In this document: piece after piece, positions 10,715-13,570 of the stretch | Position numbering within the stretch: the first letter of the stretch is position 1 | Layout: each line of letters starts with the position of its first letter | Assembly: GCF_012027615.1 (NCBI RefSeq) | Contig: NZ_SNUT01000002.1 | Coordinates: forward strand, 124,001 to 188,000 | DNA from: Thermococcus sp. 21S7 | Lineage (GTDB): Archaea > Methanobacteriota_B > Thermococci > Thermococcales > Thermococcaceae | Direction of reading: 5' to 3' | DNA length: 64,000 nucleotides | Notes under the pieces: generated by a model | Databases searched by the model: none | What the model saw: the letters and a program-made list of their open reading frames with translations, nothing else | What the model was told of the DNA's origin: nothing | Translations under genes and position numbers: made by a program

Positions 10715-10975
10715 TCAGGCCTTGGAGGCCGTGACACGCTTGGCGACCTTTCCTGCCGGAGTGGTCGGCAGGTAGGCACCGCCGGCGAAGGTGGCGCCGC
10801 ACTTCTGGCACTGCCATATGCCGGTGCTTATCCTCCTGACGGCCTTCCTTCCGCAGACCGGGCAGACGTGCTTCTGCTTCATCTTGGCCTCAACGGCCGC
10901 GACCCTTCTTCTAATCTTGAGACCGTACCTTGGACCGTACCTTCCGGCTGAACCAACCTTAGTAGTCCTTCCCAT
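10715..10975 (-). CDS. rpl37ae: 50S ribosomal protein L37Ae
   Basis: About 86 residues: [25 protein letters not shown], then the zinc ribbon [31 protein letters not shown]. This is the conserved L37Ae pattern (CPxCG...C..CG). It binds 23S rRNA in the large subunit. The ATG follows GGTGATGCTC; three extra codons upstream in the frame are not used. It is first in its operon, with a TATA box about 60 bases upstream. Confidence 0.95.
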
Positions 10976-11030
10976 GAGCATCACCTCTAATTATCAACCG
11001 ATTTTCACGACTGGAGAGTGTTTCCGGGGA

Positions 11031-11046
11031 CGTTTTATAAACCTTT
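11031..11046 (-). promoter_or_regulatory. TATA box for the L37Ae operon
   Basis: On the minus strand the sequence reads AGGTTTATAAAACG, a near-ideal archaeal BRE/TATA. Predicted transcription start is about 25 bases downstream, leaving a leader of about 30 bases before the L37Ae ATG. Confidence 0.6.
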
Positions 11047-11118
11047 GCCCGGAAGCTTTGCATGGTAAAGTTTCATCAAAGTTCGCGGTTCCTTTAAACC
11101 TGCCGGTTGATGGAAGAG

Positions 11119-11250
11119 TTCTTTATAAAATTTATCTGATTGAAGCTTTGGAAAAAGCTTCACCAGAAAAGTTTGTAAGGGGGGCAGTGGAGATGTCGCC
11201 CCCCTGGGGGTCCCGACGTCATCGCAACCCACTACTCGTCGGGCATTCAT
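11119..11250 (+). ncRNA. candidate structured RNA: three consecutive hairpins with its own TATA box
   Basis: A TATA box, CTTTATAAAATTTATC, is followed within 60 bases by three perfect stems. The first is GAAGCTTT with AAAGCTTC closing a GGAA tetraloop (11142-11161). The second is GGGGGGC with GCCCCCC (11179-11204). The third is CCCGACG with CGTCGGG (11212-11243). An alternative fold pairs AGTGG (11186-11190) and GATG with CATC and CCACT (11229-11233) around C5/G5. No good open frame or C/D box is present, and no ACA follows the last stem. The next gene has its own TATA (CCTTATAACA) after the structure, so a separate short transcript is plausible. Inference only. The rest of the intergenic stretch (10976-11304) holds just the two flanking promoters. 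Confidence 0.42.
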
Positions 11251-11304
11251 TTCTATGCACAAAACCTTATAACAGTTGGGCCTACTCACCCATAGGTGCA
11301 GAAC

Positions 11305-11805
11305 ATGGCAGGAACGGTAAGCAAGGTAATACACTTCCGCGACGAGGAGGAGTTCTTCGACGACATGACTGAGATAATGGAGCGCTTTTCCTACCTGGCC
11401 AGCAAATACGGTCACAATCCCGTTGAGGGTGTTCTCCTGTGGGACTACATAGGCGTTCAGGACGAAGAAGGCGTTAAAATTTTCCGCGTGGGCGAGTTTC
11501 CCTACTTTGAGGGGGCCCTGAAGGTTGACCTTGAGACCCTTAGAGTCATGGAGCGCTACTTCGACGAGATGGAGAGCAAGTGGGACGAACTCCGCGTGGA
11601 GGACATCGCTTACTTCGTGGAGATGCTCAACGACGCCCTGGGCAGGGAAATCGTCTACTACGAAGCCTACGACCTCGGCCTGGACAGGAACACTGCCTAC
11701 ATAATCCTCAACCTCGTCAGCCTGCACTATCTGGAGAGCGTTCTCGACGGAAGGGACAGGGAGATATTCGAGGAAGCCGTTGAGATGCTAATGAAGTACA
11801 TTTGA
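11305..11805 (+). CDS. conserved acidic helical protein of unknown function
   Basis: About 166 residues starting MAGTVSKVIHFRDEEEFFDDMTEIMERFSYLASKYGHNP. It is strongly acidic and mainly helical; no known motif, no membrane segment and no cysteines are seen. The C-terminal part (YIILNLVSLHYLESVLDGRDREIFEEAVEMLMKYI) looks like a helical hairpin. The ATG, rather than the GTG nine bases before it, fits the spacing of AGGTG. TATA (CCTTATAACA) lies about 35 bases upstream. I do not recognise the family; it may be restricted to Thermococcales. Confidence 0.68.
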   Translation: MAGTVSKVIHFRDEEEFFDDMTEIMERFSYLASKYGHNPVEGVLLWDYIGVQDEEGVKIFRVGEFPYFEGALKVDLETLRVMERYFDEMESKWDELRVEDIAYFVEMLNDALGREIVYYEAYDLGLDRNTAYIILNLVSLHYLESVLDGRDREIFEEAVEMLMKYI

Positions 11806-11858
11806 TTATGTGATTGTTGAATTATGTAATTGCTTGATTAAAGCTTGAGGTGATGCCC

Positions 11859-12110
11859 GTGCTCTTCAAGAAGAGGGGAACCTTCACCGAGGAGGACGCC
11901 AGAAAGGTCATCGAGATTGTGAGCGAGAGGCCCGATGAGAGGGAGATAATCGTCATGGCGGAGAAGGTTACGGACGGGGCAAAGAGGCGCCTCTGGGACT
12001 ACGCGAGGGGAGTTCAGCTCATGGCCGACATGACCGGCGAGAACCGGAGCGTGAGGGTGGAGATTCTTGAGGGCTACGTGAGCGAACATGTGAAGGGCGT
12101 TGAACTATGA
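11859..12110 (+). CDS. small protein, possibly SepF-like alpha/beta fold
   Basis: About 83 residues, GTG start after GAGGTGAT. The order of helix (FTEEDARKVIEIVSERPDE), strand (REIIVMAE), helix (DGAKRRLWDYARGVQLMADM) and strand (VRVEILEGYVSEHV) is similar to SepF/DUF552 proteins, where a dimer of this fold tethers FtsZ, but key residues cannot be confirmed and no membrane-targeting helix is present. Treat as hypothetical. Upstream there is a 17-base imperfect tandem repeat of ATTATGTRATTG type and no obvious TATA, so it may be read through from the previous gene. Confidence 0.5.
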   Translation: MLFKKRGTFTEEDARKVIEIVSERPDEREIIVMAEKVTDGAKRRLWDYARGVQLMADMTGENRSVRVEILEGYVSEHVKGVEL

Positions 12111-12216: not shown

Positions 12217-12435
12217 ATGCCCGTACCTATGCCCCCGGGAACGGAATTCCTGGGCTGGCTCTTGCTTCTGGCCGCTGTGGCGGGGGTAGTATTCCTCATA
12301 GTCCGCTGTTCCGGTTCCTCCGGGACATCGAGGCCGGCAAACCCGGGTATGGAAGATTCTATGTCGGCCCTGCTTGAGGAGATAAGGCTCCTTAGGGAAG
12401 AGATTCGGGAACTCAGGGAGGAACTCAAGGAGTGA
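12217..12435 (+). CDS. small membrane protein with C-terminal coiled coil
   Basis: A 72-residue protein: one membrane helix (FLGWLLLLAAVAGVVFLIVRC, about residues 11-31), a Ser/Gly/Pro linker, then a charged heptad-like coiled coil (ALLEEIRLLREEIRELREELKE). The cytoplasmic tail probably dimerises. The start follows GGGGGAATGAGAG. It lies eight bases before the ArsR gene and shares its promoter and operator, so its level is probably set by that regulator. Function unknown; a membrane-anchored sensor or partner for the regulator is possible but unproven. Confidence 0.65.
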   Translation: MPVPMPPGTEFLGWLLLLAAVAGVVFLIVRCSGSSGTSRPANPGMEDSMSALLEEIRLLREEIRELREELKE

Positions 12436-12442
12436 TGGGCTG

Positions 12443-12760
12443 ATGGACGAAAGGAGTTCCGAGAGGGACATCCAGAGGATTTCCGAGACGTTCAAGGCTC
12501 TCTCAAGTCCAACCCGACTCAGGATACTGGTACTGTGCATGGGGGAAGAGAAAACCAGCAGGGAGCTCAGGGAAGCACTGGGAATATCAAAGCCCCTTCT
12601 CATCTCACATCTCCGGAAGCTCCTGAGTGCGGGGCTCCTTGAGTACAGGGTTGAGCTGGACAAAAAGCGTATGATAGTCCGGAAGTACTACCGAACGCGA
12701 GCCGATGTTCCATGCATCGAGGAAATCCTGAGAAGCGTCAAGGGTCGACCTGAAACTTGA
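12443..12760 (+). CDS. ArsR-family winged-helix transcriptional regulator
   Basis: About 105 residues. The ArsR pattern is FKALSSPTRLRILVLCMGEEKTSRELREALGISKPLLISHLRKLLSAGLLE, then the beta wing VELDKKRMIVRKYYR. One cysteine lies in helix alpha 3 (LCMGEE) and one near the C-terminus (DVPCIEE), too few to name a metal site with confidence. It likely binds the palindrome upstream of its own operon and is released by a metal, redox or metabolite signal. Starts after GTGATGGGCTG. Confidence 0.85.
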   Translation: MDERSSERDIQRISETFKALSSPTRLRILVLCMGEEKTSRELREALGISKPLLISHLRKLLSAGLLEYRVELDKKRMIVRKYYRTRADVPCIEEILRSVKGRPET

Positions 12761-12808
12761 AGTCGCTGGAAGCCAAATCCTTAAAACTGCCTCGGAGTAG
12801 TGTCTGTC

Positions 12809-13570
12809 ATGAAGCTTGTAATGGCCGAAGTCTTCAACAGTTGGCAGGGTGAAGGCGGAAGCGTCGAGGGCTCTGCCTTCGGGAGGAGGCAGATTTTCGT
12901 CCGCTTCGCAGGATGCGACCTTCGTTGTGTCTTCTGCGACTCCAGGGAGTACCTCGACGCCCCCCGCGTTTCACGCTGGTGCTATGAGGTCGAGCCGTTC
13001 ACCGGACGGTTCGAGTACCGACCTAATCCAGCGGAGCTCGGCGACGTCGTTGATGCCATCCTGCGCCTCGATACCGGCGATATACACTCGGTAAGCTACA
13101 CCGGCGGTGAGCCGACGCTCCAGGCGAGGCCGTTAAAGGCCCTGATGGAGCGCATGAAGGAAATCGGCTTCGACAACTTCCTCGAAACTCACGGCGGCCT
13201 TCCGGAGCTGATTAAGGAGGTTGCCCACCTTACAGATTACGCGAGCGTTGATATAAAGGACGAGACCGCGAAGGCTACGGAGGACTGGAGGGCCCTGGTT
13301 CTCCGTGAGGTGGAAAGCATAAGGATTCTGAAGGAAGCCGGCGCAAGAGTTTACGCCAAGCTCGTCGTTACGTCGGAGACGAAAATCGAGAACGTCCGCT
13401 GGTACGCTGAACTGTTGAAGGGTTTGGCTCCCCTTGTAATCCAGCCGAGGGAGCCGATTGAGATAAGTCAGAGGAGGCTCATGGAACTCTACCGTGAGGC
13501 GGCGCTGATCATGGGCCGGCGGAACGTCGGGCTGAGCTTCCAGGTTCATAAGTATCTCAACGTCCTCTGA
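12809..13570 (+). CDS. queE: 7-carboxy-7-deazaguanine synthase QueE
   Basis: About 253 residues. It opens with KLVMAEVFNSWQGEGGSVEG, typical of QueE, followed by the radical SAM motif CDLRCVFC (CxxxCxxC) and SYTGGEPTLQ. QueE contracts the ring of 6-carboxy-tetrahydropterin to CDG, the precursor of preQ0 and so of archaeosine in archaeal tRNA. A TATA-like CCTTAAAAC lies 26-30 bases before the ATG and no Shine-Dalgarno is visible, so the message is probably leaderless. The next gene follows ten bases later. Confidence 0.88.
   Translation: MKLVMAEVFNSWQGEGGSVEGSAFGRRQIFVRFAGCDLRCVFCDSREYLDAPRVSRWCYEVEPFTGRFEYRPNPAELGDVVDAILRLDTGDIHSVSYTGGEPTLQARPLKALMERMKEIGFDNFLETHGGLPELIKEVAHLTDYASVDIKDETAKATEDWRALVLREVESIRILKEAGARVYAKLVVTSETKIENVRWYAELLKGLAPLVIQPREPIEISQRRLMELYREAALIMGRRNVGLSFQVHKYLNVL

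Follow-up and report, generated by a model that had tools for sequence, protein, structure and literature searches.

The stretch of DNA analysed here, 64,000 nucleotides in its full length (the window), includes a segment at 11119-11250 that lies between the gene for L37Ae and a divergent gene of 166 amino acids. The features in and around this segment are as follows:

11121-11136, plus strand: TATA-like stretch CTTTATAAAATTTATC, outside the RNA gene and within a block at ~10960-11173
11141-11177, no strand assigned: dispersed repeat with an 8-bp hairpin, many matches per genome
11179-11245, minus strand: sRk28 RNA gene (see below), 67 nt, predicted +1 at 11245, end of hairpin 2 at 11179
11179-11204, minus strand: second hairpin, 7 bp, 99.8% of alignment cells paired
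11205-11211, minus strand: linker ACCCCCA, whose ACCC can pair with the loop GGGU (possible pseudoknot)
11212-11243, minus strand: first hairpin (S1), 7 bp (11237-11243 with 11212-11218), 18-nt loop, 99.4% of cells paired
11219-11230, minus strand: loop GGGUUGCGAUGA, nearly invariant in the alignments, predicted unpaired
11267-11272, minus strand: TATA box TTATAA, -27 to -22 of the RNA
11305-11805, plus strand: divergent gene for a 166-aa protein that matches nothing in Pfam or NCBIfam; a neighbour of the RNA and not part of it

The individual elements listed in a preliminary description of this segment are all present. They include the TATA-like stretch, an 8-bp stem closed by GGAA (GAAGCTTT/AAAGCTTC, at 11142-11161) and two 7-bp stems, GGGGGGC/GCCCCCC (11179-11185 with 11198-11204) and CCCGACG/CGTCGGG (11212-11218 with 11237-11243). 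The folding of the 132-nt plus strand beats all 200 dinucleotide shuffles (z -3.67). The energy of the 70-nt core is unremarkable (z -0.58 for the plus and -1.65 for the minus strand), and the case therefore rests on conservation and covariation, not on energy.

The preliminary description treated the three hairpins and the TATA box as a single unit, a view that did not survive comparison with other genomes. A DNA search with 11100-11270 found matches in 59 of 61 congeneric genomes, and these were of two kinds: strong matches to ~11177-11246 and many short ones, dispersed through the genomes, to ~11141-11177. When the query was 11175-11275, exactly one match was obtained in each of 76 genomes out of 115 from the phylum; these represent 6 of 12 genera and all belong to the family of the window. 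Since the strong matches are single-copy, the conserved unit consists of the two 7-bp hairpins and the linker between them. Covariance analysis across other Thermococcus genomes supports two of the three stems; the first hairpin in plus-strand order lies in a dispersed repeat.

In four related loci (L075, L076, L083 and L078) the block corresponding to ~10960-11175 lies 251, 251, 275 and 531 bp, respectively, from the block that begins at 11159 or 11174. In L075 and L076 both block edges carry near-identical stretches of 14-15 bases with one G different; the window has a single copy, at 11159-11173. The simplest reading is that ~250 bp were probably deleted in this genome between short direct repeats, although there may instead have been an insertion in the relatives. 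Dispersed AT-rich hairpin repeats occur at 11141-11177 and 11043-11098, with several in this genome and many in its relatives. In many Thermococcus such repeats directly adjoin the 3' end of sRk28.

Identity and structure of sRk28

An RNA of ~70 nt called sRk28 has been described in Pyrococcus abyssi (2011, PMC3124441) and in Thermococcus kodakarensis (2014, PMC4247193). Its expression is documented in both organisms and is regulated by growth phase, and both papers label it a 'putative preQ1 riboswitch'. In T. kodakarensis it is an orphan transcript and the downstream gene is transcribed independently (PMC4247193). The P. abyssi RNA is placed at 527697-527833 on the minus strand with a 5' start at 527798 and a length of 70/100 nt (Phok et al. 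2011, PMC3124441).

From 71 distinct copies we built a covariance model that spans 78 positions with 14 pairs. It matches the window at 11169-11246 on the minus strand with 100 bits. In the P. abyssi genome (G085; chromosome of 1,765,118 bases) the DNA match covers 527745-527798 and the model match 527720-527799, minus strand. The published 5' end at 527798 is one base inside the latter and aligns with window position 11245. Agreement with the published RNA in place, strand and 5' end puts sRk28 on the minus strand of the window with +1 at ~11245, a predicted start set by homology to the published P. abyssi 5' end. The assignment of G085 to P. abyssi is supported by a CRISPR array at the place of CRISPR 1 in the paper and by SscA at the place given there for sRk33/SscA. 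We conclude that 11179-11245 is almost certainly the gene of an sRk28 homolog. It equals the RNA of P. abyssi and T. kodakarensis in sequence, strand, predicted 5' end, length and the presence of two hairpins. It differs in its surroundings: a PP-loop ATPase gene lies downstream in P. abyssi, whereas in the window the next gene is that for L37Ae, 209 nt further on. Counted from +1, hairpin 2 ends after 65-71 nt across the copies, a length like that of the published 70-nt band; no fixed T-run was seen after hairpin 2 in the aligned copies.

The preliminary description had proposed a new small RNA on the plus strand. It is indeed a small RNA but not a new one, being already known as sRk28 (PMC3124441, PMC4247193), and homology, model hits and promoter all point to the minus strand. 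It is without a gathering-level match in Rfam 15: no family reached the gathering score in the whole window and none came near it in the core. This includes the box C/D and H/ACA guide RNAs, where HgcG with 11.9 bits (cut-off 77) and PyrR206 with 10.3 (cut-off 46) had the top H/ACA scores. SscA and HgcG are also conserved intergenic RNAs of Thermococcales, but SscA was matched at its own locus and not at the sRk28 site, where HgcG stays at its 11.9 bits against 77. The present analysis defines the strand and borders of the RNA in this genome, maps its distribution in 115 genomes and counts its losses; it also adds evidence from the promoter that the gene is autonomous, and arguments against a cis-acting switch. 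None of these was found in the literature searched, most of which was available in part.

The two hairpins looked for in an sRk28 copy were found to be conserved and to show compensatory changes. Over both stems, 99.6% of the cells are paired (71 distinct rows), and pairing falls to 42-60% when the stem partners are slid. One pair in S1 is C-G, G-C or U-A in 49, 20 and 2 of the 71 rows, and one in hairpin 2 is G-C in 40 rows and C-G in 29. Double changes occupy 51 cells in the stems compared with 18 in shuffles. The covarying pairs amount to only 2 of 14, and neither their number (2) nor the number of pair types (5) exceeds that in shuffles. The structure guided the fitting of the alignment, but both exchanges can also be seen in a plain MAFFT alignment. 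Overall, 42 of the 67 positions do not vary among 75 copies, with a median identity to the window of 91%. The GGGU of the loop and the ACCC of the linker could form four pairs in all 71 rows (three with a wobble); as they do not covary, this provides no test of the loop-linker pairing.

Could the conservation reflect a small protein, MTSGPPGGR, read from an AUG in the loop? The peptide is found in 64 of 75 copies, with MTSGPPGGQ in three more, and from the alignment both covarying positions are third codon positions. However, the length of the frame varies between 6 and 287 codons (for G036, G051 and G082 at least, the automatic reading started at another AUG), and most synonymous positions are invariant too. 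We rejected this candidate because of the varying frame length and regard it as highly improbable. The open frame MTSGPPGG(R/Q) itself, at 11179-11219 on the minus strand in the window, begins in the loop and is present in 67 of 75 copies; it is probably a by-product of nucleotide conservation.

Distribution and losses

With the covariance model, sRk28 was found in 78 of the 115 genomes of the phylum, with one copy each (75 full and three degraded, the latter in G100, G105 and G040). All 78 belong to the window's family, which is represented by 94 genomes. There was no match in the 21 genomes of the same phylum outside the family, nor in 21 genomes from other archaea, which were accessed by way of their L37Ae loci and for which an empty answer carries no weight. 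Among the genomes compared, we take G012 to be T. kodakarensis and G099 to be T. sibiricus. The distribution expected of sRk28, with conservation in the Thermococcales except T. sibiricus, fits the 78 matches in 94 family genomes and the lack of one in G099.

Fourteen of the 16 family genomes without a match are drafts; those in a single piece are G096 and G099. Where the spacer beside the 166-aa gene was read, the loci, including some with degraded copies, differ in what is left of the RNA. In G034, G038 and G043 the spacer beside the 166-aa gene measures 91-113 nt and is devoid of sRk28, while G099, G042 and G104 have longer spacers, also with no sRk28 match. Only the 3' part remains in G096, 15 nt are missing inside the RNA in G040, and the copies in G100 and G105 have broken stems. 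A weak copy lies at a greater distance in G047. Immediately upstream of the degraded copy in G105 are a resolvase gene and an OrfB/TnpB-like gene (L204, 548-2442).

To count the losses, we used a tree built from 70 rows of the 166-aa protein, 10 of which lack an intact RNA. Six changes are needed and at least four of these are required by well-supported branches. At least four losses show that sRk28 is dispensable. In addition, the natural losses (G034, G038/G043, G040 and the group G096/G099/G104/G105) make its function testable by comparison. We considered, and rejected, a loss of the RNA together with the preQ0 pathway. QueE is present in 89 of 94 family genomes, including all 74 of good quality, and a QueC model match was found in all 94, above the cut-off in 84. 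The latter include G096 and G099, both without sRk28. Since QueE and QueC persist where the RNA is absent, its loss is not coupled to loss of the pathway.

Promoter and neighbouring genes

When the 75 full copies are aligned at +1, an A/T-only hexamer starts at -27 in 55 of them, compared with a mean of 3% at other offsets; it is TTATAA itself at 28 loci. A is found at -32 in 89% and at -31 in 75% of the copies, and positions -26 to -23 are more than 98% A/T. Reading these elements as a promoter follows the BRE/TATA spacing rule. From its spacing, the TTATAA at 11267-11272 is probably used by the divergent gene at 11305 as well. At 33 of the 75 loci, 56-62 nt separate the start of the RNA from the start codon of the divergent gene, which would leave room for one shared TATA box. 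For P. abyssi, Phok et al. detected no promoter in front of sRk28 and suggested that the RNA is processed out of a longer transcript (PMC3124441); at the -27 spacing this genome has AAATAA, within the run AAAAGGAAATAAG.

Such an arrangement raises the question of whether the RNA is a functionless by-product of a bidirectional promoter. The 56-62 nt spacing would allow this, and bidirectional transcription has been reported in P. furiosus. Against it stand the 42 invariant positions and the covarying stems, together with the retention of the hexamer where the divergent gene is not nearby. The 166-aa gene lies divergently within 900 bp of the RNA at 59 of 75 loci, 41 of which have the hexamer at -27; the corresponding figure for loci without this gene within 900 bp is 14 of 16 (mean at other offsets 6%). 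We therefore consider a by-product very unlikely.

The preliminary description had the RNA or attenuator start from the TATA box at 11121 on the plus strand and comprise three hairpins with a long-range switch, AGTGG-GATG pairing with CATC-CCACT. The elements exist and fold well together, and the long-range pairs form in the window sequence and are possible in 79.5% of cells compared with 31-65% when slid. This level is not above shuffles (329 of 500 reach it), and no row other than the window has a double change, so that no covariation across relatives supports the switch. Moreover, on the plus strand the sequence to the left of the core shows no constant position for an A/T hexamer in the 75 loci (best offset 14 of 75), and the plus-strand promoter was accordingly discarded. 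In the four relatives compared, the block with the TATA box and first hairpin is separated from the core. A plus-strand RNA of this kind is scarcely credible.

The gene downstream of sRk28 is far from constant. The nearest recognised one within 900 bp is L37Ae at 23 of 75 loci, a topoisomerase at 15, a DUF357 protein at 7, an HTH-CBS protein at 7, another protein at 3, a helicase at 2 and the 166-aa gene at one; the remaining 17 have none of these, and 8 of the 17 are Pyrococcus-group loci with the PP-loop ATPase downstream. The genes that follow sRk28 are of at least seven kinds, with names that rest on Pfam for one example each. In G020 the RNA is in the opposite orientation, between the L37Ae and 166-aa genes.

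These data bear on the possibility that the RNA acts in cis on the downstream gene, as a riboswitch or attenuator; Phok et al. (PMC3124441) proposed such a role, of preQ1 type and beside a QueC-like ATPase. Consistent with this are the PP-loop ATPase after the RNA at the 8 Pyrococcus-group loci, whose N-terminal part matches Pfam QueC with 30.9 bits (cut-off 22; ThiI gives 33.4), a QueE-like radical SAM gene in the divergent run of the window (12800-13570, under the cut-offs of the NCBIfam QueE models) and the possible loop-linker pseudoknot, which would resemble the H-type one of preQ1 riboswitches. However, the ATPase is far under the NCBIfam QueC cut-off (29.4 versus 150.3) and P. abyssi has a separate QueC above that cut-off elsewhere in its genome. 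Unlike preQ1 riboswitches, sRk28 has no constant target gene, and preQ1 models are absent among the Rfam matches at E<=10 for both the window and the P. abyssi copy. No leader position before queuosine or archaeosine genes was found, as the downstream genes vary among the 75 loci, and the T. kodakarensis downstream gene is transcribed independently (PMC4247193). The preQ1 riboswitch was rejected on the combined grounds of Rfam, target and the P. abyssi neighbour, which is not that genome's QueC, and cis regulation in general appears improbable. Nor do the relatives support the attenuator-like structure suggested in the preliminary description. Because the -27 hexamer is kept even where the usual divergent gene is not nearby and the downstream gene varies, sRk28 is best regarded as an autonomous gene, which argues against both a preQ1 riboswitch and an attenuator. 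The comparative evidence thus disfavours the 'putative preQ1 riboswitch' label: across the family sRk28 behaves as an autonomous gene and not as a leader.

Possible mode of action

An autonomous gene of this type could give an antisense RNA that pairs with mRNAs through the loop GGGUUGCGAUGA or the linker. The loop is nearly invariant and predicted to be unpaired, and an orphan transcript could work in this way. However, the stems are almost as conserved as the loops, which antisense action does not require. Furthermore, the exact complement of the 12-base loop occurs at its own locus alone in 12 of 15 sRk28 genomes; each of the remaining three contains one or two further sites, six in all. 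Counting exact matches, none of these is shared among the 15 genomes, and a common exact target of the loop was therefore discarded. We consider antisense action rather unlikely.

The best explanation, to which we give a probability of roughly 0.6, is that sRk28 is an autonomous, growth-phase structured RNA acting in trans. It would be made as an independent transcript of ~70 nt from its own BRE/TATA-like promoter and would fold into two hairpins and a C-rich linker able to pair with the first loop. The folded RNA would then act in trans during growth, not in cis on the downstream gene, and a protein or ligand would most likely recognise the nearly invariant loop and the linker. Its own promoter, the conserved stems, loop and linker, the varying neighbours and the lack of a shared loop complement together point to a folded RNA of this sort. 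Action in trans taken by itself is likely. The chances seem about even that this action depends on a fold bound by a protein or ligand rather than on antisense pairing.

A more specific form of the trans-acting RNA would be a free-standing sensor. Its promoter would often be shared back to back with the run of genes containing the QueE-like gene, and its output might report the supply of 7-deazaguanine (archaeosine) or the growth rate. We regard this as quite doubtful; if true, sRk28 would be a riboswitch-like aptamer freed from any mRNA.

The divergent run itself has some further features. Genes similar to the QueE-like one also come after the 166-aa gene at the other loci read out. The genes at 11305-11805 and 11850-12110, the second of 86 aa, are conserved, have no Pfam or NCBIfam match, and precede the QueE-like gene both here and at other loci. 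In the window, two extra genes (a 72-aa ORF and one for an ArsR-type regulator, at 12217-12760) lie between the 86-aa and QueE-like genes, which adjoin each other at the other loci read out.
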